Of a stretch of DNA of 64,000 bases, positions 8,649 through 25,298 are shown piece after piece. The notes below the pieces were generated by a model. It was given only the letters and a program-made list of their open reading frames with translations, made no database searches and was not told where the DNA came from. The position numbers and the translations under genes are program-made. Within the stretch, counting starts at the first letter, position 1; every line of letters begins with the position of its first letter. The DNA is from Gammaproteobacteria bacterium (GTDB lineage: Bacteria; Pseudomonadota; Gammaproteobacteria; Eutrophobiales; Eutrophobiaceae), in NCBI GenBank assembly GCA_004297165.1, contig SCUJ01000008.1, forward strand, positions 1 through 64,000. Reading direction: 5' to 3'.

Positions 8649-9962
8649 ATGTCCGGAAATCCACGCGCAATCGCGGCCAGGATCCTTGCCTCCCTTTTAC
8701 GGGAACATCGGCCGCTGGATCAATTACTGAAAGACAAATCGGTAACCGCTCTGGACCATCGCGATCAAGCCTTCGTCCAGGAACTCTGTTACGGCGTCGC
8801 CCGCTGGTATTTCCGTCTGGAATTCCTCCTGGGAAAATTGCTCAACAAGGCCCCGCGGGAAAAGGATCTTGAGATTAAAACCTTGCTGTTGTGCGGCATG
8901 TACCAGATTGAGTTTCTGCGCACGCCAGCGCATGCCGCCGTATCGGCTTCTGTCGATGCCGTACAGACCTTGGGCAGGGATTGGGCGCGCGGCACCGTAA
9001 ACGCCGTGCTCCGTCGGTATCTGCGGGAACGCGTACCGCTGCAAGAAAAATTGTCCAACGACATCATGACCCATGCCCATCCCGGCTGGTTGCTCGATCT
9101 GCTGCGCGAGGACTGGCCGGACAAATGGGAACAGATCGCCGCCGGAAACAACGAACGCCCGCCGCTGCACCTCCGCGTCAATCGTCTCCGCATCGCACGT
9201 ACGGATTACCTGCGCACACTGGAGGAAATGGGGATCGCGGCGCACTCCATGGCCTGGAATGACTGCGGCATCGCCCTGGCGGCGCCAGTGGATGTCGCTG
9301 CCTTGCCCGGATTTCAAGAGGGACTGGTTTCGGTGCAGGATTGCGGGGCGCAATTTGCCGCGGGACTTCTGGACGCACAACCTGGAGAGCGGGTGCTCGA
9401 TGCCTGCGCGGCGCCTGGGGGCAAGGCCGGTCATATACTTGAAAGCCAGCCCCAACTCCAGGAGCTGATTGCCGTCGAACATAACCCGATGCGCGTCAAA
9501 TTGTTGCGCCAGACTTTGGATCGCCTTGGTCTGAGCGCCACCGTGATCCATGCCGATGTCAGTGATACCGCCGCGTGGTGGGATGGCGAACAATTCGATC
9601 GGATCCTGCTGGACGTCCCGTGCAGCGCGACCGGGGTGATCCGGCGCCATCCCGACATCAAGCTGTCTGGTCGTCTGGAAACGCTGCCCCTCCTGCTGAA
9701 GACACAGCGTCAGATCCTTGGTTCGATCTGGCCTCTACTCAAGCGTAAGGGTAAGCTTGTGTACTCAACCTGTTCCATACTCCGCCGGGAAAACGATGAC
9801 CAAATCGCTGCGCACCTGCAACAGCATCCAGATGCCGCCGTGGTTCCCGTTGATGCCGAGTGGGGCTGCGCGACAGTGCATGGCAGACAGACGTTGCCGG
9901 GTTTTGACGAAATGGATGGTTTCTATTATGCAATCCTGGAAAAACAGAACGCCGGCGCATAG
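8649..9962 (+). CDS. rsmB: 16S rRNA m5C967 methyltransferase RsmB
   Basis: A 437-residue enzyme that methylates C967 of 16S rRNA. An N-terminal NusB-like RNA-binding domain (about residues 5-130) precedes the Rossmann methyltransferase, with LDACAAPGGKAGHIL as SAM motif I. Both cysteines of the family are present: DVPCSATGVIRRHPDI (motif IV nucleophile region) and YSTCSILRRENDDQI. It lies 14 bp after fmt and its 3' end overlaps the next gene by 35 bp. Confidence 0.97.
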   Translation: MSGNPRAIAARILASLLREHRPLDQLLKDKSVTALDHRDQAFVQELCYGVARWYFRLEFLLGKLLNKAPREKDLEIKTLLLCGMYQIEFLRTPAHAAVSASVDAVQTLGRDWARGTVNAVLRRYLRERVPLQEKLSNDIMTHAHPGWLLDLLREDWPDKWEQIAAGNNERPPLHLRVNRLRIARTDYLRTLEEMGIAAHSMAWNDCGIALAAPVDVAALPGFQEGLVSVQDCGAQFAAGLLDAQPGERVLDACAAPGGKAGHILESQPQLQELIAVEHNPMRVKLLRQTLDRLGLSATVIHADVSDTAAWWDGEQFDRILLDVPCSATGVIRRHPDIKLSGRLETLPLLLKTQRQILGSIWPLLKRKGKLVYSTCSILRRENDDQIAAHLQQHPDAAVVPVDAEWGCATVHGRQTLPGFDEMDGFYYAILEKQNAGA

Positions 9963-10521
9963 TCCGGCCGATCTCTCCAATAAGATAATCCGGCTGCTGA
10001 TCCTGTCTTGCCTCCTCTTCACCCATCCGCTTCAGGCGCAAGTCAGGATCAGCGAGGCTGCCAGTCCTCTCGATGGCGATTATTATGTCATCAACGCCGG
10101 CCTGGACATCGAACTGGATGAAACGGCGCTGACCGCTCTGCACGCAGGCGTGCAACTCGAAATCAATGTCGCGATCCGCCTGGAGCGGGTGCGGGGCTGG
10201 CTCTGGGATCCAATCGTCAAGGAAGACAACATTTCGATGCGGCTGGAGCGCCATCCGCTGGTAGGCACGTATCAGATCACGTGGCTCGCAACGGGAGAAA
10301 AGGCTCAATATCAGGGCCTGGAAGAAGCGCTGGCCGCGTTGCGCAGCATCGCTGGTCACCCTCTTATCAACAAGGACATCCTGGATCCGGAGTCCGCTTA
10401 TGTCATCCATATGCTGGCCACGCTCGATGTGGAAACCCCGCCGGCGCCGCTGCGACTGATGACCGCCATCGCAAAAAAATGGGACCAGCGCAGCGACTGG
10501 CGTAGTTGGCCGCTGCGATAA
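9928..10521 (+). CDS. DUF4390 secreted protein
   Basis: I start this gene at the ATG at 9928, inside the rsmB 3' end, because that gives a typical export signal (KIIRLLILSCLLFTHPLQAQ) followed by the DUF4390 domain. The longer open frame upstream is an rsmB shadow. The product is 197 residues, with the domain from VRISEAA to KKWDQRSDW. DUF4390 proteins sit between rsmB and ntrY in many proteobacteria. A role as a periplasmic accessory of NtrY is a contextual inference; no function is established. Confidence 0.85.
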   Translation: MQSWKNRTPAHSPADLSNKIIRLLILSCLLFTHPLQAQVRISEAASPLDGDYYVINAGLDIELDETALTALHAGVQLEINVAIRLERVRGWLWDPIVKEDNISMRLERHPLVGTYQITWLATGEKAQYQGLEEALAALRSIAGHPLINKDILDPESAYVIHMLATLDVETPPAPLRLMTAIAKKWDQRSDWRSWPLR

Positions 10522-10524
10522 TTC

Positions 10525-12732
10525 ATGAAACACAGCGGCAGGTTAATCTTTATCACCGGCAGTGGGTTATTCCTGTTCATGCTGATGTCGCTCGTCATGA
10601 TGAGCGACGCCTTGCAGAATTCGGACCGCTTCAGTGAGCTGTATTCCGGCTTGTTGCTGTTCAACGCCATTGGCCTGTTCGTCCTGATCATCCTGATTGG
10701 CATCAATTTCCGCCGGCTGGCGGGAGAATTGCGGCAGCGCGTCCCCGGTTCCCGCATCCGCCTCCGGATGGTCGTGATCTTTACGGTGCTTTCCGTCACG
10801 CCGGTGCTGATTCTGTATTATTTCTCGCTCGATTTCCTGCAACGCGGCATCGACAGCTGGTTCGACCTGCGGGTGGAACAATCCCTCGACGATTCGCTGG
10901 AGTTGAGCCAGATCGCCTTCGATTTGCGTAAAAAGGATCTCTCTCTCCAGACCACGCAAATCGCCCGGGAGTTCGCCGGCATGAATGACGCCGTAATCCC
11001 CTTCGAGATCGACGATTACCGGTCCAAGAGCGGCGCCGAGGAACTTACATTGATGACGCGGCAGGGATCGATTCTCGCCTCCAGTGTCAGCGACATGTCG
11101 CGCCTGGTCCCGGATCGGCCGAGCGATACGATCCTGTTTCAGGTGCAGCAGGGCAACAATCATATTGGTCTGGACACCGTCAGCGGCGAGGGGCTTTCCG
11201 TCCGCGTGGTGGTCAATCTGCCGGATTCCGGGATCGACAATGAACGCCGCATCCTGCAAGCGCTGTACCCCATCCCGGAGCGGATGAATTTGCTTGCGGA
11301 TCTGGTCCAGACCTCCTACGTGAAGTACAAGGAGCTGACCTACCTCAGGGAGCAACTGAAACGCGGTTTTGCACTGGTCCTCACGCTGGTGCTCCTCTTC
11401 AGCATCTTCTCGATCGTCTGGACCGCATTCTATTCAGCGGGGCGGCTCATGGCGCCGATCCGGGATCTCGCCGCCGGCACCCAGGCGGTGGCCGCAGGCG
11501 ATTACAACACCCAACTGCCCGTCCCCGGTCACGATGAACTCGGGTTCCTCGTGGCCTCGTTCAATGAAATGACCCGCCGGATCAGTCAGGCCCGCGATGA
11601 GGTCAGGACCAGCCAGCAGGCCCTGGAGGCGCAACGGACCTACCTGGAGGCCGTGCTGGTGCGACTCTCTTCCGGCGTGCTGGTGCTGGATGAGCAGCGG
11701 CGCATTCGCACCGCGAATATCAGTTGCCGCCGGATCCTCGGCGTCGAACCCCAATTGCTGATCGGCAGATCGCTCGCCGAGCTGCGGCTCGAATACCGGT
11801 ATCTGGAACAGTTCCTGCAACTTATCGAATCGCGCCTCGAAACCAGGGCCAGCGACTGGCGGGAACAGGTAACCCTCTTCGGCGGCGCGGGCCGTGAGAT
11901 CCTGATGTGCAACGGCACTTCGCTGACATTGTCTGAAGACCAGACTTTTGTGTATGTCGTCGTCTTCGATGACATAACCGCCCTGATTCAGGGCCAGCGC
12001 GACGCGGCCTGGGGCGAGATGGCGCGACGCCTGGCGCATGAAATTAAGAATCCACTGACCCCGATCCAGCTTGCGGCCGAACGACTGCGCCACAAATATC
12101 ATGGCAAACTCGATCTCGATGAATTTGTCATCCTGAATCGCCTGACCAACACCATAATCCAGCAGGTCAAGACCATGAAGGATATGGTCAACGCCTTTCA
12201 GGAGTACGCCAAGCCGCCAGTGATGCGACTGGAAAACGTCAACCTCAACGAGTTGCTGCGGGAGGTTGTGGATCTGTTCAGCAACCTCGACAGCCGGGCG
12301 GAGATCAGCATGCAGCTTGATGACCGTCTGCCGGTAATCCAGGCCGACCCGGGCCGTCTACGGCAGGTCTTCAATAACATTCTGAATAACGCCTTCGACG
12401 CCGGCGCGCCTCTCGGCCGCACCAGCCTTGAGATCACCACCAGTTATGTCGTCGAGACCGGGGTCGATTACATCGAGATACGGATCCTGGACTCGGGCCC
12501 AGGGATCACCGAGGATATCATCGGCGCCATATTCGAACCTTATGTGACCACCAAGAAGAAGGGGACGGGATTGGGTCTGGCAATTGTTAAAAAAATAATC
12601 GAGGAACATGGAGGATTGGTCCTGTTGCGGAATAATCCCGACCGGCCCGGGGCCTGCGCCATTATCCGCTTGCCCGTGACCGGCGAGGCCAGTCATCATT
12701 CAGAACCCAGCTTGAGACGGGAGGCAATATGA
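10525..12732 (+). CDS. ntrY: NtrY-type membrane sensor histidine kinase
   Basis: A 735-residue hybrid of N-terminal membrane helices (residues ~8-30, 42-60, 80-100 and a further helix near 290), a periplasmic or extracytoplasmic segment between, a HAMP linker (APIRDLAAGTQAVAAGDY), a PAS domain (~375-480), a phosphoacceptor helix RRLAHEIKNPLTPIQ and a HATPase domain with NILNNAFDA, DSGPGI and GTGLGLAIV. It phosphorylates the NtrX-like regulator encoded next, whose start overlaps its stop by 4 bp. NtrYX systems respond to nitrogen, redox or envelope cues depending on the species; the signal here is unknown. Confidence 0.93.
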   Translation: MKHSGRLIFITGSGLFLFMLMSLVMMSDALQNSDRFSELYSGLLLFNAIGLFVLIILIGINFRRLAGELRQRVPGSRIRLRMVVIFTVLSVTPVLILYYFSLDFLQRGIDSWFDLRVEQSLDDSLELSQIAFDLRKKDLSLQTTQIAREFAGMNDAVIPFEIDDYRSKSGAEELTLMTRQGSILASSVSDMSRLVPDRPSDTILFQVQQGNNHIGLDTVSGEGLSVRVVVNLPDSGIDNERRILQALYPIPERMNLLADLVQTSYVKYKELTYLREQLKRGFALVLTLVLLFSIFSIVWTAFYSAGRLMAPIRDLAAGTQAVAAGDYNTQLPVPGHDELGFLVASFNEMTRRISQARDEVRTSQQALEAQRTYLEAVLVRLSSGVLVLDEQRRIRTANISCRRILGVEPQLLIGRSLAELRLEYRYLEQFLQLIESRLETRASDWREQVTLFGGAGREILMCNGTSLTLSEDQTFVYVVVFDDITALIQGQRDAAWGEMARRLAHEIKNPLTPIQLAAERLRHKYHGKLDLDEFVILNRLTNTIIQQVKTMKDMVNAFQEYAKPPVMRLENVNLNELLREVVDLFSNLDSRAEISMQLDDRLPVIQADPGRLRQVFNNILNNAFDAGAPLGRTSLEITTSYVVETGVDYIEIRILDSGPGITEDIIGAIFEPYVTTKKKGTGLGLAIVKKIIEEHGGLVLLRNNPDRPGACAIIRLPVTGEASHHSEPSLRREAI

Positions 12733-14084
12733 TCGCAGCAAACATACTGGTCGTGGACGATGAGCCGGACATCTGCTCTTTGGTCAAGGAGATCCTGGAA
12801 GATGAAGGATTCAATGTCACGGTCGCGAAAAATGCCGCGGAGGCGCGGGCCGCCCGTGGCGGGATCAACTTCGATCTGATCCTGTTGGACATCTGGATGC
12901 CGGATACCGACGGCATCAGCCTGCTCAAGGAATGGTCCGAATCCGGGCTAGGCAGCCTGCCTGTGATTATGATGTCGGGACACGGGACGGTGGAAACCGC
13001 CGTGGAGGCCACCCGGCTCGGGGCCTATGACTTTCTCGAAAAACCGCTGTCACTCGCGAAGCTCGTACTGACCGTCAAGCATGCCCTGGAGACGGCAGAT
13101 CTTCAGCAGGAGAATCTCAGACTGCGCCAGTACGGTCCGCATACCGCCGAGATCATCGGCAGGAGCGAGGCCATGCGACAATTGCGGGAACAGATAAAGC
13201 GGGTCGCGAGCCACAACGCCCCGGTGCTGATCATCGGCGAGGCCGGCACCGACAAGGAAGCCGTCGCCAGGGTGCTCCACAATCAGAGTGCTTATTGCGA
13301 TGGGCCGTTTGTCCCGGTAACCATGACGGCGCTCTCGCAGGACGGTCCCGCGATCGAACTCTTCGGCAAGGAGAGCGGTGGGCAAATCGCTCCCGGCTAT
13401 ATCGAGAAGGCCACTGGCGGCACGCTCTTTCTGAAGGATATCACCGGCATGGGCATGGCCACGCAATCGAAGCTCCAGGCGGCCCTGGAAGGCCGCAGTT
13501 TCACCCGCATCGGCGGCGTGGAGCCGGTCACACTCGACGCCCGCGTCGTGGCGGCCACCCCCGCGCCACTCGATGAACGGGTTCGGGAAGGGAGTTTCAG
13601 GAACGATCTGTATTTCCAACTCAATATCGTGCCGATCCTCGTGCCACCCATCCGCGAACACTATGAGGACATCCCGGAGATCCTTGATTACTATGTGAAC
13701 TTCTTCGTCGAATCCGAAGGCCTGCCCTACAAGCGCTTCTCCACCGCCGCGCAAAACCGGCTGCGCATGTACAGCTGGCCGGGCAATGTCCGCGAGATCA
13801 AGAACCTGGTCCAGCGCCTGTTGATCATCGGCGCATCGGACACTATCGATCTGCCGGACGTGGAGAAAAGCCTGGGCGAGCAGCCGGGCAAGGAAAAGGT
13901 GGAGAGTCTCTACAACTTCGATATGCCGCTGCGGGATGCGCGGGACCGCTTCGAAAAGGCCTATCTCGAGCATCAGTTGAAACTCTATAACGGGAGCGTC
14001 AGCAAGATTGCCAAGGTTGCGGGCATGGAACGCACACACCTCTATCGCAAATTGAAATCCCTCAATATCGAATTGAAGAGTTGA
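12729..14084 (+). CDS. ntrX: NtrX-like response regulator with degenerate AAA+ domain
   Basis: A 451-residue regulator: receiver domain (VVDDEPD acid pocket, phosphoacceptor Asp in LLDIWMPD), a sigma-54 AAA+-type domain (~140-370), and a Fis-type helix-turn-helix (NGSVSKIAKVAGMERTHLYR). The AAA+ domain is eroded. Walker A reads GEAGTDKE instead of GESGTGKE. The GAFTGA loop is absent (KESGGQIAPGYIEKA in its place). Walker B reads GGTLFLKDI instead of GGTLFLDEI. NtrX proteins commonly lack GAFTGA, but the Walker changes go further. It probably does not activate sigma-54 and may act as a phosphorylation-dependent DNA-binding factor. Confidence 0.9.
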   Translation: MIAANILVVDDEPDICSLVKEILEDEGFNVTVAKNAAEARAARGGINFDLILLDIWMPDTDGISLLKEWSESGLGSLPVIMMSGHGTVETAVEATRLGAYDFLEKPLSLAKLVLTVKHALETADLQQENLRLRQYGPHTAEIIGRSEAMRQLREQIKRVASHNAPVLIIGEAGTDKEAVARVLHNQSAYCDGPFVPVTMTALSQDGPAIELFGKESGGQIAPGYIEKATGGTLFLKDITGMGMATQSKLQAALEGRSFTRIGGVEPVTLDARVVAATPAPLDERVREGSFRNDLYFQLNIVPILVPPIREHYEDIPEILDYYVNFFVESEGLPYKRFSTAAQNRLRMYSWPGNVREIKNLVQRLLIIGASDTIDLPDVEKSLGEQPGKEKVESLYNFDMPLRDARDRFEKAYLEHQLKLYNGSVSKIAKVAGMERTHLYRKLKSLNIELKS

Positions 14085-14126: not shown

Positions 14127-14702
14127 ATGCACCCGGATGCGGAAAAATGGGACCGTATCTATCTTGACGGCGGATCTTGCAAGGAACAGTCGCCTGCGCG
14201 GGTGCTGGCGGACTTCCAGCATCTGCTGCCGGCCTCGGGACGCGCGCTGGATCTCGCCTGCGGTCGCGGCGCGAACGCCCTGCTGCTTGCTGCGCGCGGA
14301 CTGGAAACCCATGCCTGGGATATCTCCGGCGAGGCCATCCGCCAACTGACTGCCGCCGCCAATGGCGCAATACACTGCGTCCAACGGGATGTGGCTGCCG
14401 AACCGCCTCAACCTGAATCCTTCGATGTGATTGTGGTCACGCGGTTTCTCGATCGTGGACTGATCCCGTACATCATCGCCGCCCTGCGCCCGCGGGGCCT
14501 GGTCTTCTATCAGACCTTCACGCGGGAACGAGTCGATGACAGCGGCCCCGGTAATCCGGACTATCGTCTGGCTGTCAATGAGTTGCTCGCCTTGTTTGTC
14601 GGCCTGCGAATCATGTTATATCGCGAGGAAGGCCGGATCGGGGATCCCGCGCGGGGATTCAGGAACGAGGCCATGCTAATCGCGATGAAGGAACGATCGT
14701 GA
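14127..14702 (+). CDS. Class I SAM-dependent methyltransferase
   Basis: A 191-residue small-molecule-type methyltransferase. SAM motif I is ALDLACGRGANALLLAARG (~residues 37-55), followed by the acidic loop HAWDIS and a motif IV region SFDVIVVTRFLDRGL. It resembles the TehB/tellurite-resistance subfamily in size and motif I, but the substrate cannot be read from sequence. Its stop overlaps the start of the downstream membrane-protein gene by 4 bp, so the two are probably co-translated, and it begins about 40 bp after ntrX. Confidence 0.8.
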   Translation: MHPDAEKWDRIYLDGGSCKEQSPARVLADFQHLLPASGRALDLACGRGANALLLAARGLETHAWDISGEAIRQLTAAANGAIHCVQRDVAAEPPQPESFDVIVVTRFLDRGLIPYIIAALRPRGLVFYQTFTRERVDDSGPGNPDYRLAVNELLALFVGLRIMLYREEGRIGDPARGFRNEAMLIAMKERS

Positions 14703-16531
14703 ACGCCCTCCGGCAACCTGCCGCCGGCCTGCTGCTTGGCCTGCTGCTCGCGATCGCCTTCTACAGCTATATGCCGGGAGCGGCCGGCCCCTTCATAGTC
14801 GATGACATCCCCAATATCCTGGAAAATGACTTCCTGGTACTGCCTGAACTCAGCCTCGAGTCCTTGCGCGAGGCAGCGCTCTCCTCCCCGGCAAGCCGTT
14901 TTCGCCGGCCACTCGCCATGTTGAGTCTCGCTTTGGATTTCACCCTCGCGGGCGGCAAATCCGAACTCGCCGCCAAGACTGTCAATATCCTCCTGCACCT
15001 GATCTGCGGCCTGGGGGTGTATCTTCTTACTGTAAAACTTTTGACCCGATTTCATAACCGGACATTAATTCCCGACATCAACACTCAGATTCGCGGCGCC
15101 GCTCTGCTTGTCGCCGGCATGTTTCTGCTGCACCCGCTCTATGTTTCGACTGTACTGTACGCCATTCAGCGGATGGCGATCCTGAGCAACCTGTTCATCA
15201 TCTACGGTTGCCTTGGTTATATTTATCTGCGCGACCGGACACTAAGACTGGGCGCGGGACTCCCTGGCCTGATCGCATCGGGCGTATTGTTCACGGTGCT
15301 CGGATTTTTCTCCAAGGAAAACGGGGCGTTGCTGCCGGGATTTCTGCTGCTCATCGAACTCTTCTGCTTTAATTTTCGATTTCATCCCGAGGCACACCCT
15401 CGATCCGGGCTCGTCCTCGGCGCATTCCTCGGGATTCCCGTGGTAGTGATCGGCAGTTACCTGCTGTTCATATTTCTACTACATGCCGGAGAACCTCTGG
15501 CCCCTTACGGTTTCACACCCTGGGAACGTCTGCTTACAGAGGCCCGGGTATTATGGTCCTATGCCGGCTGGTTGACCTTTCTCAATCCCTCGCCCATGGG
15601 GATCTACCACGATGATCTCACGGTTTCGACAGGCCTGGCTCAGCCATGGACAACGATGCCCGCGGCCGTGGGATGGTTGATCGTTGTCGTGCTGACGGCC
15701 CGGTTGTCCCTGCGCCGGCATGTCATCGCCTTCGGCCTCCTCTGGTTCCTCTGGGGCCATATCCTCGAATCGACAGTCCTGCCGCTCGCGCCGATGTTCG
15801 AGCATCGCAATTACCAGCCGGGTCTGGGACTGTTCCTGGTCCTCGTGCTCCTGATCCGCCATGCGGGCGTAACCCTGGCGCCCAATCCTTACCTGCGCCA
15901 TGCCCTGTGCCTGTTAATCTTCGTGCTCATGCCGCTCTATACCCTGCAAGCTCGGGTGGCTGACTGGGGCGATCGCAAATCGCTGACGCTCGCCCTGCTC
16001 AGGGACAAACCGTATTCGGCGCAGAGCCTGATCATGGCGGCGAAATTCCTCGCCGAAGGCGGGGATCGCGATAATGCCCTGCTGGCGGCTCGCCAGGCCC
16101 AATTGCTGGATCCTGACGAACCGTCTCATGTGATGGCTGAGGCCTTAATCCACTGTAATGCCAACCGGTCTGCTAGATTCAGCACGGGACTGGAGGATCG
16201 TCTGCGCGGACTGCGCGTGACAGGATTTGTGTCCGTGAATACGCTAAGACAACTGCGCCAGATGATCCCTATATGCCAGTCCTCGCGATCGAACGAGGAT
16301 GTCCTTCTCGCCTTGTATGATCATCTCAGCATACATGCCGATGACCGCCTGGCGATGCTGGGCATGTACGGCAGCGGCACGATTCACATGCAGCAGCGGA
16401 AATACATGGAGGTCGTGCATGACTGGGAGGCGGCCATGGCCCGTCATCCGGATGCGGCGGGACTCAAGCCCGCCCTGGAATGGGCGCGGCGGCAGATTAA
16501 CCAGGGTGAGGATCACCCTGCATCAAGGTAA
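14699..16531 (+). CDS. GT-C-like polytopic membrane protein with C-terminal TPR-like region
   Basis: A 610-residue protein with about ten hydrophobic helices between residues 7 and 425, then a soluble alpha-helical region with repeat-like character (LLAARQAQLLDPDEPSHVMAEA). After the first helix comes the acidic motif FIVDDIPNILEN, reminiscent of the catalytic Asp loop of GT-C glycosyltransferases (TMTC/PMT-like), and later HPLYVSTVLYAIQRMAILSNL. It could transfer a sugar from a polyprenyl donor to exported proteins, perhaps pilins of the nearby MSHA locus, but that is inference. Its 3' end overlaps the convergent pyrD by 9 bp. Confidence 0.7.
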   Translation: MNALRQPAAGLLLGLLLAIAFYSYMPGAAGPFIVDDIPNILENDFLVLPELSLESLREAALSSPASRFRRPLAMLSLALDFTLAGGKSELAAKTVNILLHLICGLGVYLLTVKLLTRFHNRTLIPDINTQIRGAALLVAGMFLLHPLYVSTVLYAIQRMAILSNLFIIYGCLGYIYLRDRTLRLGAGLPGLIASGVLFTVLGFFSKENGALLPGFLLLIELFCFNFRFHPEAHPRSGLVLGAFLGIPVVVIGSYLLFIFLLHAGEPLAPYGFTPWERLLTEARVLWSYAGWLTFLNPSPMGIYHDDLTVSTGLAQPWTTMPAAVGWLIVVVLTARLSLRRHVIAFGLLWFLWGHILESTVLPLAPMFEHRNYQPGLGLFLVLVLLIRHAGVTLAPNPYLRHALCLLIFVLMPLYTLQARVADWGDRKSLTLALLRDKPYSAQSLIMAAKFLAEGGDRDNALLAARQAQLLDPDEPSHVMAEALIHCNANRSARFSTGLEDRLRGLRVTGFVSVNTLRQLRQMIPICQSSRSNEDVLLALYDHLSIHADDRLAMLGMYGSGTIHMQQRKYMEVVHDWEAAMARHPDAAGLKPALEWARRQINQGEDHPASR

Positions 16532-18103: not shown

Positions 18104-18517
18104 TCATGGCGCCGTTGTAACGCTGGCCATCAGCTTCCGCCGGTAATAATCGACCCCGCCGATGGTTCCCTTCTCGGCGACCGCGGTGAGATGAAAGACA
18201 TTATAGTTGTCTGGTCCTTCATCGACATTATTCGCGAGACAGGTGAGGGTAACTGTGTAGCCATCGCTCGCGCCGCCGCTTAGCGTGAAAGTGTCGTTCG
18301 GCGCGGCGAAGCAGGCATCATTTGCGATGACATAACCAATCGCCCATTGCATGCCGCCCTCGACGGCGAATTGCGCCCTGGAACTCATGAGTGAATAGAC
18401 GGATGTCGTTTGCTGGACGCTGCCTATGGTGACCATGAAGGTCGCGAGCGACGCCACCACGACGATGAGGAAGATTGCCCCGATCAAGGTAAAACCCCTG
18501 GCGCGACGCATGTTCAT
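18104..18517 (-). CDS. mshP: MshP-like minor pilin-type protein
   Basis: A 137-residue prepilin-like protein: short basic leader MNMRRARG, then FTLIGAIFLIVVVASLATFMV as the hydrophobic stem. The residue at mature position 5 is Gly, not the usual Glu; this is a feature of GspK/MshP-type tip subunits that cannot form the standard N-terminal salt bridge. Two Cys pairs may form disulfides in the globular part. It is last gene of the minus-strand MSHA unit and overlaps mshO by 4 bp. No mshQ follows. Confidence 0.82.
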   Translation of the reverse strand: MNMRRARGFTLIGAIFLIVVVASLATFMVTIGSVQQTTSVYSLMSSRAQFAVEGGMQWAIGYVIANDACFAAPNDTFTLSGGASDGYTVTLTCLANNVDEGPDNYNVFHLTAVAEKGTIGGVDYYRRKLMASVTTAP

Positions 18518-19455
18518 GGGACGTTCGGCACCTGGATCTCATCCATGAGTCGGACGATATTCGCGTTCCCCTGACTGTCGGTGGACGTAAACGTAAGGTC
18601 CACGAGCAACAGGGCGTTGCGCGAATGACTACCTTGGATATACGTGAAGGTGCAGGCAGTAATGCGATCCCCCAGCACCGCGCCGGGCGGGCCGGGGCTG
18701 ATGGACTGGGCGGCAGTAATGGCATACTCGGCGCGCCGGCTTATCTCACCCGTCCCGGCGCCCGGATTGCAGACGAAACTCACCGGCGTGTCCACGATCT
18801 GGAAACGTTGGCGCGGCGAAGGGAAGGGAAAGCGCGTGACCCCGGCGGCGCCGCTGATATCGAAGGTGATGGCGCTCGCCGAGGCCGCCTGCAAGCCGGC
18901 GATATTGTCGGCATCCCAAGCATTCGCCCCCGCCTGTCCGGTGTTAAAAATCACGATGCAATCGACCGTCCCCGTGAGGCAATCGTCCTGATCGGCCCCA
19001 GGGGCGGCGACCGGCAAGATCCCGCTCATGCCACCCATGATCTCGAAACAGTCATTGCTCGCGGTAAAACGGATACGATCCTGACCGGGGCTGCCGCAAG
19101 GGCCGGCGCTGCCATCCGGCAGCCGACGATAACGGCCGCCGTTTTGGGTGCGCAGGATCTCCACCGCGCACTGACCCCCGCCGGTGGTCGCGGTGCAGCT
19201 TTGCAGATATTGCGTCGCCCCGTCGGTGATCCGCAGGCTGTTCGGCAAGGCCAGCCGGATCTCCCGCGAGATCCGGCGCAAGGTCAATTCCGCGGCTTCC
19301 ACGAGCACAGCGCGCTGGCCGAGGTCGATGAATCCCGCCACGGGCCGGCTGATGTTTCGGGCGGCGATCAAAGCGATGATCCCGGTGAGCGTGATGACCA
19401 CCACCAGCTCGATCAGGGTGAAGCCGCGCTGTGTGATCCTGGCGCTAAGCATCAA
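18514..19455 (-). CDS. mshO: MshO-like minor pilin
   Basis: A 313-residue large minor pilin. The leader MMLSARITQRG is followed by FTLIELVVVITLTGIIALIA with Glu5 intact, as in class IV prepilins cleaved by the PilD peptidase. The globular domain is long and Cys-containing, the usual character of MshO, which probably joins a tip or initiation complex with MshC, MshD and MshP. Start and stop codons overlap those of mshD and mshP by 4 bp, so the four are translated as a block. Confidence 0.87.
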   Translation of the reverse strand: MMLSARITQRGFTLIELVVVITLTGIIALIAARNISRPVAGFIDLGQRAVLVEAAELTLRRISREIRLALPNSLRITDGATQYLQSCTATTGGGQCAVEILRTQNGGRYRRLPDGSAGPCGSPGQDRIRFTASNDCFEIMGGMSGILPVAAPGADQDDCLTGTVDCIVIFNTGQAGANAWDADNIAGLQAASASAITFDISGAAGVTRFPFPSPRQRFQIVDTPVSFVCNPGAGTGEISRRAEYAITAAQSISPGPPGAVLGDRITACTFTYIQGSHSRNALLLVDLTFTSTDSQGNANIVRLMDEIQVPNVP

Positions 19456-20000
19456 TAACGGGTCCGGAATCCCGTGAGACGGATGTCATCCGCCAATGCA
19501 TCGTGTGAGACAGTCACATCGATCCGTACTGCTGCACCGCTCGCGGCGCTCAGCGGGGCGCCGGCCGGCCCCAGACTGAAGACTGAATCCACGACCTGCA
19601 CGTTGACGTTGTAGGAACCGAGTCCTGACAGGGCATTGCCGTCCTGATCCTTCGCGCCGGAGTCGCTCAAGCCGTCATAATCGCAGACGTCGTCAAACTG
19701 ATCCCGGTTGGCGGGACCTTCCGCCACGGTGCAGGTCGCGAGCCCGCAGGCGCTGCTGGTGCAGGCGGTCGCGCAATCCGTCGCCACATCGGGATCGCAG
19801 TAGGATTTCTGAGTGACCTCTTCCATGTAGGCCTGCGCCACCGCGACTGCCTGCTCATGGATCATGGGGTCCACGCTGCGGCCCTCCGATTGGCTGGTGA
19901 GGGTTATCAACGTGATCAGCGCGATGCTGACGATGACGATCGTGACAATAAGTTCGATCAGGGTGGCGCCACGAGATGAGTTCAACATCCGGCTATACAC
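19452..20000 (-). CDS. mshD: MshD-like minor pilin
   Basis: A 182-residue prepilin with leader MYSRMLNSSRG and stem ATLIELIVTIVIVSIALITL; Glu5 is present and the mature residue 1 would be Ala instead of Phe. Six Cys in the globular region (YCDPDVATDCATACTSSACG and the following CTV, VCD) suggest several disulfides. Its 5' end overlaps the mshC 3' end by 19 bp and its 3' end overlaps mshO by 4 bp. Confidence 0.87.
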   Translation of the reverse strand: MYSRMLNSSRGATLIELIVTIVIVSIALITLITLTSQSEGRSVDPMIHEQAVAVAQAYMEEVTQKSYCDPDVATDCATACTSSACGLATCTVAEGPANRDQFDDVCDYDGLSDSGAKDQDGNALSGLGSYNVNVQVVDSVFSLGPAGAPLSAASGAAVRIDVTVSHDALADDIRLTGFRTRY

Positions 20001-20476
20001 CGGGTGAACCCGGTCTCCGCTTCGATCCGCAGGGTACGGCTACCGATGGTGATATCCACAGCCGCAACCAGCAGGCTGCCTGGCACAGAGCTGGCATCAT
20101 GGGGCCGCCCGATGGGGTCGAAATACAGCAAGGCCGGAAAACCGCCTCCCCCCAAAACCACCCCGGTGGGGGGCGGATCGGCGAAGGCGCTGTTACTGCC
20201 GGGCTCTGTCACCGGCACGCTCGCGCCCACTCCGGCATCGCAACCGGCCCACCGATCCAGGGCATAACCCGAGGCATCGATGGTAACTCGGACATCGCAA
20301 TCGCTCGCAATGGCGAGTTTCTGGGCGTAATGCACCGCGGCCTGGAGGCTTTCGAAATAACCGCGTTTATCGAAATCGGAGATGGTGAAGAACCGGGGCA
20401 AGGCGATCGCGGCGAGGATCCCGACGATCAGGATCACTGTGACCAATTCGATAAGAGTAACGCCGCGTTCAGTCAT
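19982..20476 (-). CDS. mshC: MshC-like minor pilin
   Basis: A 164-residue prepilin with a very short leader (MTERG) and stem VTLIELVTVILIVGILAAIA, Glu5 intact. I place the start at the ATG at 20476; the longer open frame to 20527 would put a non-leader peptide, encoded by a terminator hairpin, before the cleavage site. No clear Shine-Dalgarno sequence precedes this ATG because the U-tract of the hairpin at 20481-20509 occupies that place. Translation may depend on read-through transcripts whose hairpin is opened. Confidence 0.87.
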   Translation of the reverse strand: MTERGVTLIELVTVILIVGILAAIALPRFFTISDFDKRGYFESLQAAVHYAQKLAIASDCDVRVTIDASGYALDRWAGCDAGVGASVPVTEPGSNSAFADPPPTGVVLGGGGFPALLYFDPIGRPHDASSVPGSLLVAAVDITIGSRTLRIEAETGFTRCIAGC

Positions 20477-20480
20477 AGAC

Positions 20481-20509
20481 AAAAAAGGCCCATGGAAACC
20501 ATGGGCCTT
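20481..20509 (-). terminator. Rho-independent terminator after the major pilin gene
   Basis: On the minus strand: a perfect 11-bp stem AAGGCCCATGG / CCATGGGCCTT (arms 20499-20509 and 20485-20495) with a TTT loop, followed by a T run completing TTTTTT (20481-20486). It lies 30 bp past the pilin stop and ends 4 bp before the mshC ATG. It should stop most pilin transcripts and leave lower read-through into mshC-D-O-P, matching the need for many major and few minor pilins. Confidence 0.85.
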
Positions 20510-20538
20510 GGTGTAACGGTACAACACGTGTTACAGGA

Positions 20539-20967
20539 TCAGCAACCGCCAGTGGTTACCGCGACCGTTGGCGAGACGTTGGCGGATGCGGGTTGGGTGT
20601 AGGTCACCCTGCAACCTGCCGGCGTTGGGGCGCTGCTGAAAGAAAAGGCGCCCGCCGCAAAACTGAACCCGGAAAAATCCTGGAGGGCATCATCGATCCC
20701 TGCGGTAGCGGGGTATTTGAATGCCATAGTCACCGTAGTGCCTTCCAGAGACACCGATTGCGAGGCTGTGGCCCCGGTCACCAGGGACACGGAATGGGCC
20801 AGGGCAGCCGCCGCCCGGACGCTGCCCGCCAGTCCGTTGACCGCCGCCATTCTGGCCCTGGTCTCCAGGCCCGCGAAACGGGGCAGGGCGAAGGCCGCCA
20901 GTATCCCCAGGATGGTGATCACCACCACCAGTTCAATCAAGGTAAAACCACGTTGTTGTGTTTTCAT
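20539..20967 (-). CDS. mshA: MSHA-type major pilin
   Basis: A 142-residue prepilin: leader MKTQQRG, then FTLIELVVVITILGILAAFALPRF, the canonical N-methylated stem with Glu5. The globular domain is small, Ala/Ser/Val-rich and ends with two Cys (CRVTYTQPASANV ... TTGGC) that can form the C-terminal disulfide loop of type IV pilins. Position in the locus (after the mshG-F region, before mshC), small size and the terminator behind it mark it as the main structural subunit. A GAGG-containing Shine-Dalgarno (CTGAGGAGTC) lies just before the ATG. Confidence 0.9.
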   Translation of the reverse strand: MKTQQRGFTLIELVVVITILGILAAFALPRFAGLETRARMAAVNGLAGSVRAAAALAHSVSLVTGATASQSVSLEGTTVTMAFKYPATAGIDDALQDFSGFSFAAGAFSFSSAPTPAGCRVTYTQPASANVSPTVAVTTGGC

Positions 20968-21019
20968 GTTGACTCCTCAGTCAGATGGGCCGCAGCCCGG
21001 TTTACGGATGCCGTTTTAT

Positions 21020-21062
21020 CCCCCGCCGCGGCGGGGGAGGATCCCGTTCCCTCGAGGGATCC
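21020..21062. other. GC-rich palindromes in the pilin leader region
   Basis: An 18-bp perfect palindrome made only of G and C (21020-21037) is followed by an imperfect dyad GGATCCC (21039-21045) / GGGATCC (21056-21062). Both lie in the 168-bp gap upstream of the pilin gene. On the pilin transcript they would form two strong stem-loops in the 5' leader, or they are protein-binding sites. No T tract follows on either strand, so a terminator is unlikely. Confidence 0.45.
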
Positions 21063-21135
21063 CTGCCTCCAATAATTGCCCCCGGCTCCACCGGAGGTAT
21101 TCCAGGCACAGTGGCCCTGAATTCTTGTAATTGCC

Positions 21136-21726
21136 CTACAACATACCCCACAGTTGGATCAGGATATATAAACTCCCGATGGTCACCAGCAGGCCCATCA
21201 GGCGCGGCTGCTGGCCGAAGACCCGATCCGGGGCCTTGAGCTGCACATCCAGGCGCTTGAGGGAGCTGTCGACGGCAAACCATCTGTTACCCCAACTCTC
21301 CAGGTGTTTCAAGAGGCTTGGCCGGAACATGATAACCAGGCCGATAAAAAAGATTACCGTACTGAAGGCGCGGCATAGAAATATGATCGATGCCGTCAGC
21401 CACTCGTTGGCGGTGGCGCTGGCGAAGATCCTCAACACATAGCCGCGATCGATTCCCCAAATAAAAGTTACGAAGATGTACAGCGAAGCGAGGGCAAGCA
21501 GAACGCCTGAGATGATATGGTACCGGTAAAAGAACTTCTCGCTGCCCTGCGGCCGGTCGAGATTACTAAAGAACTGGTCTGTAGAGACCCAACGATTCAG
21601 TCGCCGTCCGGCCTTGATGATGAGATCCGGCGAGACCAGCATGCAGCAGCCAATGATCAGCATCACGACCCCGGCCGAGAAGGATATATGGATGAGCAGT
21701 TCCGAGAACGTGATTCCGGTATTCAT
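21136..21726 (-). CDS. Four-helix membrane protein of unknown function in the mshB position
   Basis: A 196-residue protein with four predicted membrane helices (about residues 10-31, 69-92, 108-134 and 174-194) and no prepilin leader. In Vibrio and Shewanella loci the gene between mshF and mshA is mshB, a pilin; here that slot holds this polytopic protein. Residues 40-60 and 140-165 contain similar NRW-containing segments (LNRWVSTDQFFSNLD and GNRWFAVDSSLKRLD), pointing to an internal duplication of a two-helix unit. I do not recognise the family. Same strand and 14-bp spacing to mshF suggest co-expression. Confidence 0.75.
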   Translation of the reverse strand: MNTGITFSELLIHISFSAGVVMLIIGCCMLVSPDLIIKAGRRLNRWVSTDQFFSNLDRPQGSEKFFYRYHIISGVLLALASLYIFVTFIWGIDRGYVLRIFASATANEWLTASIIFLCRAFSTVIFFIGLVIMFRPSLLKHLESWGNRWFAVDSSLKRLDVQLKAPDRVFGQQPRLMGLLVTIGSLYILIQLWGML

Positions 21727-21740
21727 GTCGTTTTTATCAC

Positions 21741-22277
21741 TTAATAATTCCAGGAATAGCGATCCATGACTTTCACCAGCAATTGCCGTGGGACATCCCT
21801 CCCCGGCGAATACCGGCCGTCATGGTCCCGGTCCTCATAACCCAATTCGAAATCCAGCCGCACCAGCGGCAGACCGCCGGTCTCGTTATGAAAATAATCC
21901 GTATTCGACACCCGGTAGACCAGCCGGCCCGTGTCCGTCTCGAACACCCAGGATCCTGGCGCCATGTTTACTTCATCCACATCCGCCACCGCGCCGGCGT
22001 AGTTGGCGGGCGGCTGGAAGGCGATATCCACCGGATTTGCGCCGGCATACGTCGCAATCTCAGCGTACTTCTGGTCGATCAGTTTTTCCGCCGACCAGAT
22101 CATCAATTCCGCGCGGATCTGGTTGATGGCCAGTTCCAGATACCGATCCTCCGCCGCCACCGTCATGATCAACACCCTCTGGAGAAACAGACTGGCGAAG
22201 ATGCACACCAGCAGAAACGAGAGCGCCAGCTCCAGCAGCGATAAGGACCGGGACATGCGCAGTTGTTCATAAGCCAT
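21741..22277 (-). CDS. mshF: MshF-like protein
   Basis: A 178-residue protein with one N-terminal hydrophobic helix (LSLLELALSFLLVCIFASLFLQ) and a soluble remainder with a conserved-looking GSWVFETDTGRLVYRV segment. The helix is pilin-stem-like (with LLELAL) but has no clear Gly cleavage site, as in MshF proteins. It lies 6 bp after mshG. An internal ATG at residue 8 (MSRSLSLL) is an alternative start. Assignment rests on position and general form; sequence conservation of MshF is low. Confidence 0.75.
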   Translation of the reverse strand: MAYEQLRMSRSLSLLELALSFLLVCIFASLFLQRVLIMTVAAEDRYLELAINQIRAELMIWSAEKLIDQKYAEIATYAGANPVDIAFQPPANYAGAVADVDEVNMAPGSWVFETDTGRLVYRVSNTDYFHNETGGLPLVRLDFELGYEDRDHDGRYSPGRDVPRQLLVKVMDRYSWNY

Positions 22278-22283
22278 GCCTGT

Positions 22284-23513
22284 TCACTGATTGCGCATGC
22301 TCACGGAGGCGAGGTCCCACATGGGCAGGAAGACGCCAAGCGCCAGCACCAGCACCATGCCCCCGATGATGACGATCATCACCGGCTCAATGGTGCCGCT
22401 CAGATTCTTGATGTCGTAATCCACCTCGCGCTCGTAGAATCCCGCGACCTCTTCCATCATCTCGTCCACCTGCCCGGTCTCCTCGCCGACAAACAGCATC
22501 TGCAACACCAGCGGCGTGAACATGTTGGTGGCGGCGGCGGTGCGGGTGATGCTCTCGCCGCGCTCGATGCCGTTGCGCATGTTGAAGATATGGTCACCCA
22601 CATAATCGTTATCCACGGCGCGGGCCACGACGGTGAGCGCCTGCACTAACGGGACACCCGCCGCGAGTGACATGGCGAAGGCCCGCGAGAAGCGACCCAG
22701 CGTGGCGCGCAGCAGGATGTCTCCCACCAGGGGTAGCCGCAGTTTGTACTTTCCCCAGGTATAGCGGCCGCGCTCGGTCTTGACGTAGTAGGACAAACCC
22801 GTGATCGACAGGACCAGGCCAATGCCCATTAACAACCAGTAATCGACAAAGAAATTTGAGGTGGCCACCAGGATCCGGGTGTAGATCGGAAGCTCCGCGT
22901 GCGCCCGTTCGAAGACCTTGGCAAAGGCGGGGATCACCACCAGATTGATGATGGTGAGGGCGACGCCCATCGCGACGATCACCATGGCCGGATAGCGCAG
23001 GGCTGATTTGACTCGCTCCCGCGTATCTTTTTCCAGCTCGAGGTATTCGGAGATCCGCAGAAAAGCGGCGTCCAGATTACCGGTGCCTTCACCCACGCGG
23101 ATCATGCTGATATAGAGCGGCGTGAAAATCTCGGGATAACGGGCGAAGGCCGAGGACAGCTCCCGGCCGGATTCGATCTGGGTTTGTACATCCCTGAACA
23201 CGCGCTTGAGCCGCAGGTTCTTGGTGGCCTCGATGATGCCCGTCATCGCGCGGATGATCGGGACCCCGGCGCGCATCAGGGAATGCATCTGCCGGCTGAA
23301 CAGGATCAGATCGGTGAGGGTGGGGCTGCGGGTGTTGAGCCAATCCTGCAGCGCCTGGAATGGATTATCGCCCGCCACCCGCGCCGCGATGTCGATGGGC
23401 ACGATATTACTGTTCAACAATTGAGTGGCGACGGCATCGATGGAGGGCGCGTCGATGACGCCGGTCATCAGATCCCCCCGGCTGCTGCGCCCCTTGTATT
23501 GGAATTCCGGCAT
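22284..23513 (-). CDS. mshG: MshG inner-membrane platform protein
   Basis: A 409-residue GspF/PilC-family protein. Two cytoplasmic GspF domains (~70-195 and ~275-395), each with the glutamate-rich signature (GTGNLDAAFLRISEYLE and ETGQVDEMMEEVAGFYE), are linked by three membrane helices (about 170-195, 222-245, 375-398). It forms the platform in the inner membrane on which the MshE motor acts. Just downstream of mshE with a 15-bp gap. Confidence 0.95.
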   Translation of the reverse strand: MPEFQYKGRSSRGDLMTGVIDAPSIDAVATQLLNSNIVPIDIAARVAGDNPFQALQDWLNTRSPTLTDLILFSRQMHSLMRAGVPIIRAMTGIIEATKNLRLKRVFRDVQTQIESGRELSSAFARYPEIFTPLYISMIRVGEGTGNLDAAFLRISEYLELEKDTRERVKSALRYPAMVIVAMGVALTIINLVVIPAFAKVFERAHAELPIYTRILVATSNFFVDYWLLMGIGLVLSITGLSYYVKTERGRYTWGKYKLRLPLVGDILLRATLGRFSRAFAMSLAAGVPLVQALTVVARAVDNDYVGDHIFNMRNGIERGESITRTAAATNMFTPLVLQMLFVGEETGQVDEMMEEVAGFYEREVDYDIKNLSGTIEPVMIVIIGGMVLVLALGVFLPMWDLASVSMRNQ

Positions 23514-23528
23514 GGCGAAGGCGGCCTG

Positions 23529-25298
23529 TTAATGGGTTTCCTGAGGTCTGTCCGGAACCTCCAGGATTCCGTTGACCGCCCTCGACTCCGCCGGCGTGTC
23601 CGTATCAACCTCGGCGGTTATCCGCATCACTTCCTCGATGGTGGTGATCCCGTTCGTGGCCGCCTCCAGTGCGGCTTGCGCCAGGGTGAAATACCCCGGG
23701 CTTTTCGCCGCCGCGTCCGTAAATTCGTTGCTGTCGCCGCGGCCGAGGATCCGAGCCAGTTCATGATCGATCAGCAACAGTTCATAGATCCCGACCCGCC
23801 CGTGATAACCCGTGAAGTTGCAGCGGCTGCAACCGATGCCCCGCTTAAAGCCGTTCCAAGCCGCCTGGTCCCCGCCGATGGCCCGGATATAGGCCATTTT
23901 TTCCGCGCCGATGACGGTGTCCTGCGCGCAACCGATGCACACGCGCCGCACCAATCGCTGGGCAATCACCGCATTCAGGGCGCTCGCCAGGAGGTAGCTC
24001 CTGATATTCATGTCGAGCAGGCGATTGATGGTGCTGATGGCGTTGTTGGTGTGTAACGTGGAAAGCACCAGATGTCCGGTCATGGCGGCGCGCACGGCGA
24101 TCTCCGCCGTCTCCTCGTCGCGGATCTCGCCGACCAGTACGATATCCGGGTCCTGGCGCAGGGCGGATCGCAAGACCCTGGAGAAGGTAAGACCGATATC
24201 GGCGTTGACCTGCACCTGGTTGACGCGTGACAGGCGATACTCCACCGGATCCTCAACAGTGATGATCTTGGTTTCCGGGGTATTCAGCAGCCGCAGGCCG
24301 GCATATAGCGTCGTGGTTTTGCCGCTGCCCGTGGGGCCGGTCACCAGGACCATGCCATGCGGGTGTTTGAGTACATGTTCGTAGGCGGAGCGTATCCTGG
24401 GCGGCATCCCCAGTTCCTCGAGCTCGAAGGTGCCACGGGTCTGATCGAGCAGGCGCATGACCACGGATTCACCGTTCTGCATGGGCATGGTCGAGATGCG
24501 GACATCCACGTTGTGGGCCTTCACATTAACGGTAAAGCGGCCGTCCTGTGGCAGACGTTTCTCGGAGATGTCGAGACCCGCGATCAACTTCAGGCGCGAG
24601 ACCACCGCCGCGGCGATGTTCGCCTCGTCGACCACCTGCTCCTGGAGGATGCCGTCCACCCGCAGACGGATCCTGACCATCTTTTCCTCCGGCTCGATGT
24701 GGATGTCGGAGGCGTTGACCTGCACCGCATCCTCGAACACGGATTGCAGGAGTTTGACCACCGGGGCATCGGACACATCCGCGTCCGAGACAAGCGCCTG
24801 GAGGTCGACGTCGCTCGCGTGGAGTTCAGTGCTCAGCCGGCCGGCGAACTCGGTGATCTCGTCGGTCTTGCGATAGACGTTGTCCAGCGTCGACAACAGA
24901 TCGCTCTCCCGCACCACCGCGAGCCGCAGGGGTAATTGCAGGATTCGGGACAGTTCGTCGAAGCCAAAGATGTCAGTCGGGTCGGCCATCCCCACCATGA
25001 GGCTGTCCTCGCTCCGGGCCAGCGCAATCGCCCTGAAGCGCCGGGCCTGAACCTCCGGCAGGAGCTTGATCACCTCCGGCTTGAACTTGTAATGCAACAG
25101 GTCGACGAACGGGATATTGAGCTGCCGGGAGAGAACTTCGAGGATCAGATTCTCGGCCACATAGCCATGCTCGATCAGGATCCGGCCGAGCTTGCGGCCG
25201 GTCTTTTTCTGGTCGGCGAGCGCGTCCTCGAGCTGGGCCTGGGAGATCAACTTCTGTTCCACCAGCAGGTCGCCGATGCGGATCTTCTTGCGGATCAT
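23529..25298 (-). CDS. mshE: MshE pilus extension ATPase with c-di-GMP-binding MshEN domain
   Basis: A 589-residue GspE-type hexameric ATPase driving pilus extension. I start it at the ATG at 25298 (MIRKKIRIGDLLVEQ), which overlaps the mshN stop as TAATG; the longer frame upstream is an mshN shadow. The N-terminus carries two tandem MshEN motifs (RIGDLLVEQKLISQAQLEDAL and KLGRILIEHGYVAENLILEVL), the known c-di-GMP site. The core has Walker A GPTGSGKTT, the Asp box, Walker B DIVLVGEIRDEETAE, and a Cys4 zinc site (CIGCAQ ... CSRC). Confidence 0.96.
   Translation of the reverse strand: MIRKKIRIGDLLVEQKLISQAQLEDALADQKKTGRKLGRILIEHGYVAENLILEVLSRQLNIPFVDLLHYKFKPEVIKLLPEVQARRFRAIALARSEDSLMVGMADPTDIFGFDELSRILQLPLRLAVVRESDLLSTLDNVYRKTDEITEFAGRLSTELHASDVDLQALVSDADVSDAPVVKLLQSVFEDAVQVNASDIHIEPEEKMVRIRLRVDGILQEQVVDEANIAAAVVSRLKLIAGLDISEKRLPQDGRFTVNVKAHNVDVRISTMPMQNGESVVMRLLDQTRGTFELEELGMPPRIRSAYEHVLKHPHGMVLVTGPTGSGKTTTLYAGLRLLNTPETKIITVEDPVEYRLSRVNQVQVNADIGLTFSRVLRSALRQDPDIVLVGEIRDEETAEIAVRAAMTGHLVLSTLHTNNAISTINRLLDMNIRSYLLASALNAVIAQRLVRRVCIGCAQDTVIGAEKMAYIRAIGGDQAAWNGFKRGIGCSRCNFTGYHGRVGIYELLLIDHELARILGRGDSNEFTDAAAKSPGYFTLAQAALEAATNGITTIEEVMRITAEVDTDTPAESRAVNGILEVPDRPQETH

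Follow-up and report, generated by a model that had tools for sequence, protein, structure and literature searches.

What becomes of a response regulator of the NtrX family whose AAA+ domain has lost the residues for handling ATP and contacting sigma-54? The question is raised by ntrX (plrR-like; positions 12729..14084, + strand; 451 aa), a gene in the first 64,000 nucleotides of contig SCUJ01000008.1 from the gammaproteobacterial assembly GCA_004297165.1, a stretch that we hereinafter call the window. An original prediction, made from the sequence alone, described the product as an NtrX-like regulator with three broken AAA+ motifs. Judged from the alignments presented below, the altered Walker A motif marks a clade and not one gene, while erosion of Walker B is common in other sampled gammaproteobacterial NtrX proteins. 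We posit, with a probability of about three in four, that the window protein, once phosphorylated by NtrY, binds DNA and regulates sigma-70-type promoters independently of ATP, and that its AAA+ domain would be a pseudo-ATPase retained as a nucleotide-free scaffold.

Loss of AAA+ motifs in the window protein

The three motif changes that had been noticed at the outset are all present in the translated gene, every feature of which is given here on the + strand. The Walker A motif reads GEAGTDKE (aa 170–177; 13236..13259), with Asp in place of Gly175; the L1 loop (aa 213–223; 13365..13397) is devoid of GAFTGA, the segment spanning aa 210–223 being ELFGKESGGQIAPG; and Walker B reads LFLKDI (aa 233–238; 13425..13442), with Lys for Asp236 and Asp for Glu237. 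The alignment reveals further losses. The sensor I region, VAATP (aa 274–278; 13548..13562), has Pro278 at the column of the conserved Asn, the switch Asn is Thr198, and the arginine-finger region, FRNDLYFQLN (aa 290–299; 13596..13625), keeps the first Arg (Arg291) and has Gln297 as the second. Also retained are the Walker A Lys176 and, in the sensor II region WPGNVREIK (aa 350–358; 13776..13802), Arg355 and Lys358. The motif names follow PMC7175178 (here and below, papers given by PMC number are cited from excerpts), and their placement on the alignment columns is our own assignment. Thus, of the features that define an NtrC-type sigma-54 bacterial enhancer-binding protein (bEBP), the window protein lacks GAFTGA, the Gly-Lys of Walker A, the Asp-Glu of Walker B, the sensor I and switch asparagines and one of the two arginine fingers. 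As a control, the nine bEBP paralogues that a search of the same genome recovered are all canonical, with GxGK, DE and a GAFTGA-like loop. Taken together, the losses in the window protein, from the loop that contacts sigma-54 to key residues of both Walker motifs, of sensor I and of one arginine finger, make it very probable that the protein is unable to remodel sigma-54, as had been suggested.

The family assignment made at the outset is likewise borne out. The top NCBIfam match is the NtrX model NF051870 (432.8 bits, E 1.5e-129), and Response_reg, Sigma54_activat (142 bits), AAA_lid_14 and HTH_8 each exceed their Pfam cut-offs; this order of receiver, AAA+ and Fis-type helix-turn-helix (HTH) domains, together with the best family match, places the protein in the NtrYX family in the broad sense. 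However, as 432.8 bits falls short of the curated equivalog cut-off of 600 bits, it is not filed under NF051870. The domains flanking the AAA+ core look intact, in line with the original prediction: the receiver (aa 4–120; 12738..13088; PF00072, 99.6 bits) has the phospho-acceptor Asp54 (12888–12890) along with Asp10/11, Ser83 and Lys105 in the alignment, and the HTH domain (aa 398–448; 13920..14072; PF02954) scores 30.2 bits.

The predicted fold is preserved despite the motif loss. An AlphaFold2 model built from a 12-sequence alignment (mean pLDDT 82.4, pTM 0.54) has NtrC1, Brucella NtrX and NtrC4 among its fold matches, with Z scores of about 31 at an rmsd of 16–20, the domains being placed differently; the AAA+ part on its own superposes on FleQ with a Z of 29.6 and an rmsd of 2.0 over 246 residues. 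The best solved relative is Brucella abortus NtrX (PDB 5m7n, 5m7o and 5m7p), of which 5m7n is the top PDB match by sequence (E 3.9e-101) and which matches the model with an rmsd of about 20 over 418–426 residues. Like the window protein, it combines the receiver, AAA+ and HTH domains without GAFTGA; however, the 5m7n alignment shows GPSGAGKE and LYLDEV in place of the motifs that contain Asp175 and Lys236 in the window protein.

Distribution and history of the changes

Genome searches recovered some match in 57 of 58 genomes, the window's own included, and within the window's family 50 of 53 genomes yielded one at E 1e-100 or better. Among matches to named records, the 80 loci listed share 39–58% identity with the window protein, and its best relatives reach 70%. 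We aligned 229 distinct sequences: a 51-sequence clade (50 from the window's family and L070 from another family), 165 other NtrX proteins, four from alphaproteobacteria and nine outgroup sequences labelled Deltaproteobacteria, Desulfobaccales, Nitrospira or Nitrospirales, Acidobacteria and Rokubacteria. Of the 165 others, 128 stem from genomes of the window's class; the other 37 are named records, most of them labelled Gammaproteobacteria or groups that we take to belong there; with lower-scoring matches left out, this sample is biased toward closer sequences. In a tree computed without the Walker columns the 51 clade sequences still group together with a support of 1.0.

In this clade 50 of 51 sequences no longer have Gly175 (39 Asp, six Asn, five Glu, one Gly), as compared to its retention in 163 of the 165 other NtrX proteins. 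Asp236 is also replaced in 50 of 51 (43 Lys, six Asn, one Asp, one Ser); outside the clade this position is variable, with Asp in 70, Asn in 25, Ser in 18, Lys in 17, Glu in 12 and Gly in seven, plus rarer residues. Position 237 is Asp in 50 clade members and Glu in one, and elsewhere Glu in 89, Asp in 65, Gly in seven, Asn in three and Ser in one. Only 45 of the 165 retain both the GK of Walker A and the DE of Walker B, two of them with the sensor I Asn as well, and whereas all nine outgroup sequences have an exact GAFTGA or GAFSGA, neither the 51 nor the 165 include a single one. The minor motifs are not uniform in the clade: Arg355 of sensor II is found in 43 of 51, the first arginine finger in 39, the second in two and an Asn in the switch column in 16. 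Asp54 of the receiver is found in 50 members, the remaining one having a gap. By this comparison what is fixed in the clade is the pair of Walker changes, and the other AAA+ motifs vary. The initial interpretation was mostly right and yet too narrow: the Walker A change belongs to the clade, and the losses go beyond the three motifs noted at the outset. It had also been recognized that canonical Walker residues in all close orthologues would point to a local sequencing error. As the close orthologues share the substitutions, the change looks inherited; with recurrence in separate clade genomes and canonical paralogues in the same genome, a sequencing or assembly error is next to inconceivable. 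One of the sequences without GAFTGA is the NtrX of Acidithiobacillus ferrivorans, from a group, the Acidithiobacillia, whose NtrX proteins are counted among sigma-54 activators in PMC12194929.

Parsimony suggests the order in which the losses accrued. Lys236 predates the clade, its origin being placed at the root of a group of 70 tips, and a single gain of Asp175 followed on this Lys236 background. Hence, as reconstructed from these sequences, the order of events is loss of the loop, then erosion of Walker B, then closure of Walker A. Later changes within the clade comprise two shifts from Asp to Glu and one reversal to Gly at position 175; in one further case Lys236 was lost while Asp175 stayed.

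The altered domain is no relic. The dN/dS of its AAA+ core lies between 0.03 and 0.27 in the 25 closest of the 88 clade pairs with dS below 1.6, and on account of these low values we consider the domain to be kept by purifying selection. Relative to the other sampled NtrX proteins, the rate in the clade is 1.37-fold for the AAA+ core, 1.30-fold for the receiver, 1.02-fold for the lid and 0.72-fold for the HTH domain, which is the slowest of the compared domains within the clade.

A form without the AAA+ domain occurs in a related locus. We chose by eye eight extra loci from genomes that have the DUF4390 gene and in which NtrX was not matched at E 1e-85. One of these, L277 (G159:C1:500700-506500, ORF from 2958 on the + strand), codes for a 240-aa NtrX consisting of a receiver and an HTH domain with no AAA+ domain, downstream of genes for DUF4390 and NtrY; beta-proteobacterial NtrX proteins are likewise stated to be devoid of the AAA+ domain (PMC13001219). 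Four others (L279–L282) encode DUF4390-linked NtrX proteins whose AAA+ domains share 23–31% identity, and whose receivers share 50–64%, with those of the window protein. In the remaining three (L275, L276 and L278) no part of NtrX was matched at E 1e-3, the sequence of L275 stopping at the end of ntrY. L276 and L278, from two different genomes, have DUF4390 and ntrY with no NtrX match in about 2 and 3.5 kb past ntrY, respectively; the partner of their kinase has perhaps been relocated or lost.

Mechanism and competing explanations

According to the mechanism we propose, NtrY, whose activity the periplasmic DUF4390 protein probably modulates, would phosphorylate NtrX on Asp54 and thereby alter the dimer or oligomer state of NtrX; the Fis-type HTH domain of the phosphorylated protein would then bind operators, and sigma-70-type promoters would be activated or repressed without ATP. 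The comparisons above establish, at the level of sequence, the clade-wide fixation of the Walker changes in a domain under purifying selection, alongside an intact receiver, HTH domain and kinase. Given that an Asp sits at the Walker A Gly just before the Lys, the protein probably binds no nucleotide. The sigma-70 type of the promoters and the direction of control are our extrapolation, activator and repressor being indistinguishable by sequence. For the P-loop, we assume that position 175 is equivalent to Gly15 of Ras.

Several precedents lead us to favor an ATP-independent regulator of sigma-70-type promoters. Ras G15A, in which the P-loop Gly preceding the Lys is changed to Ala, is used as a nucleotide-free mutant (PMC11835592). 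The NtrC proteins of Rhodobacter capsulatus and Caulobacter, which have undergone the same loop loss as the window protein, act at sigma-70 promoters (PMC10274813). The NtrC-like VpsR of Vibrio cholerae is reported to work with the sigma-70 polymerase (PMC9303241) and independently of ATP (PMC10274813); its structure 7v2b matches our model by fold (Z 26.6, rmsd 22.6 over 354 residues). VpsR differs in being responsive to c-di-GMP, a response for which there is no evidence in the window protein, and PMC9303241 elsewhere calls it a sigma-54-dependent regulator. The phosphorylated NtrX of Sinorhizobium binds CAAN2-5TTG palindromes, and it is downregulation that is seen for genes with such a site across their start (PMC9223101). 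The AAA+-less L277 in the same type of locus, the slower HTH domain of the clade and the adjacent ntrY also back this reading.

Other observations weigh against it. The presence of Lys176 and Glu177 in all 51 clade members is odd for a pocket without a role, and the pocket could have residual or altered ligand binding. For the GAFTGA-less NtrC proteins a requirement is reported, for ATP binding in R. capsulatus and for the Walker residues in Caulobacter (PMC10274813), whereas the window protein has lost key Walker residues. Brucella NtrX was crystallized with ATP and with ADP, going by the titles of PDB 5m7n and 5m7p, and Acidithiobacillia NtrX has been treated as a sigma-54 activator from its domains (PMC12194929). 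A rival idea is that the AAA+ domain binds ATP or another ligand such as c-di-GMP without hydrolysis, as an allosteric signal. It can draw on the retention of Lys176 and Glu177 and, in most of the clade, of the sensor II Arg355. Against it, an Asp at the P-loop Gly preceding the Lys is expected to clash with phosphate and to repel it, and a Lys has moreover replaced the Walker B Asp. The precedent of R. capsulatus NtrC, which needs ATP binding and not hydrolysis (PMC10274813), and the proximity of the c-di-GMP site of FleQ to Walker A (PMC9303241) lend the idea some appeal; however, the LFRS motif that forms part of that FleQ-type site was not found before the AAA+ domain of the window protein, where aa 137–147 read PHTAEIIGRSE, and we regard ligand binding as improbable.

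A different explanation, which we consider doubtful, is that the domain is decaying neutrally and is on its way out, as in the AAA+-less NtrX proteins, so that the particular residues mean nothing. It accounts readily for the erosion of Walker B in most of the other sequences, for L277, for the faster AAA+ core of the clade and for the variable first arginine finger and switch column, and yet it sits poorly with the low dN/dS of that core and with the constancy of the pocket. Lys176, Glu177 and Lys358 are found in 51 of 51 clade members, as against 126, 91 and 98 of the 165 sequences outside, and position 175 has an acidic residue or Asn in all but one. Glu177 and Lys358 are the two most slowed sites in the clade (no changes versus 45 outside, among sites with at least 15 changes), and six of the 20 most slowed sites belong to the 36 residues that we grouped as pocket motifs (P 0.003), a set picked after the ranking had been seen. 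This hints at a new, fixed state of the dead pocket, in which a charge network may be standing in for the nucleotide.

Carried further, this thought yields a special form of the proposal made here, with which its odds overlap: a network of Asp/Glu175–Lys236, Lys176, Glu177, Asp237 and Lys358 might mimic the nucleotide-bound state and turn the domain into a constitutive oligomerization module controlled by phosphorylation alone, a possibility that we entertain tentatively. It is consistent with the pairs at positions 175 and 236 across the 51 tips, L070 included, of which 37 are Asp–Lys and five Glu–Lys (42 in all), and with the occurrence of Asn236 in five of the six carriers of Asn175, the changes from Asp to Asn at 175 and from Lys to Asn at 236 mapping to one six-tip branch. 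However, there are exceptions in the clade (L067 and L069 have Asp175 with Asn or Asp236, and L029 has Gly175 with Lys236), 17 sequences outside it combine Lys236 with an unchanged Gly175, and no covariation is seen outside for Glu177 with Lys358 (Fisher p 0.43) or for Lys236 with Glu177 (p 0.21). We rejected salt-bridge covariation as proof of such a network, since the acidic residue was gained once on a Lys236 background and the pairing has practically no statistical power. More speculatively, and with odds on the low side, the acidic residue at 175 and Lys236 would form an internal salt bridge that replaces Mg-ATP, leaving a permanently "loaded", ATP-free AAA+ domain as a pure phospho-switch, with the steps toward it preserved in relatives. 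If this is true, the clade has rebuilt its P-loop pocket, and an activator once driven by ATP has come to depend on phosphorylation alone.

On our preferred reading of an ATP-independent, phosphorylation-controlled regulator, these proteins would supply a natural series leading from sigma-54-type ATPase activators to ATP-free sigma-70 regulators: the outgroup NtrX with GAFTGA, loop loss in the sampled alphaproteobacteria, gammaproteobacterial erosion of Walker B, the sealed P-loop of the clade and the AAA+-less form, with intermediates that can be expressed and compared. In practical terms, a Sigma54_activat annotation can misplace such genes in the sigma-54 regulon. We identified no report of the loss of Walker motifs in NtrX in the literature, covered in part, with nothing in the excerpts of PMC5892882 and PMC7240162; the review PMC12697260 mentions four classes of NtrX regulator, and part of this finding may already be in print there. 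The window protein is a new form of the known NtrYX/PlrPSR response regulators.

The locus and its genome

The presumptive kinase partner is encoded immediately upstream by ntrY/plrS (10525..12732, +; Pfam NtrY_N, HAMP, PAS, HisKA and HATPase_c), which overlaps ntrX by four bases and whose product has the H-box HEIKNP. ntrY adjoins ntrX on the same strand in all 44 testable clade loci, seven of the 51 having too little upstream sequence. It is preceded by a plrP-like gene for a DUF4390 protein (domain coordinates 10039..10509, +; PF14334, 109.1 bits) and rsmB (8649..9962, +; PF01189, 196.6 bits). The position of rsmB and the DUF4390 gene directly upstream of ntrY assigns the locus to the PlrPSR subset, for which the order rsmB-plrP-plrS-plrR is reported in beta- and gamma-proteobacteria (PMC13001219). 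The window locus thus shares both this order and the DUF4390 partner with the PlrPSR system of Bordetella, and differs from it in two respects: beta-proteobacterial NtrX proteins are reported to have no AAA+ domain, whereas the window protein retains an altered one, and trkA follows plrR in Bordetella (PMC13001219), whereas a methyltransferase ORF follows ntrX here.

As rpoN was detected in 35 of the 37 family genomes searched, the window's among them, the loss of the sigma-54 role is, on genomic grounds, specific to NtrX, and the other bEBPs still have their partner. A search of the window for the operator motif GCAN9TGC, reported for R. sphaeroides and cited in PMC9223101, returned 34 matches versus 25.9 expected; as seven of 100 shuffles reach 34, there is no excess over chance. 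One such palindrome, not above chance, lies at 9883–9897, inside the 3′ end of rsmB and immediately ahead of plrP, in the region where a plrP promoter is located in Bordetella (PMC13001219).

From the start of the contig to ntrX the distance is 12.7 kb, and 14 other genomes of the family likewise have ntrX 11.4–13.4 kb from a contig start; three tRNA genes are found at 186–561 of the window. A common assembly break, for instance at an rRNA operon or another repeat, is perhaps responsible. Downstream, positions 14699–16531 encode a 610-aa, apparently membrane protein with no Pfam match at E 0.01. Finally, a run of minus-strand ORFs occupies 18104–25454, several of them with prepilin-like starts (GFTLIELVVVITI), and the ORFs that follow these resemble what we take to be type II secretion or type IV pilus assembly proteins.

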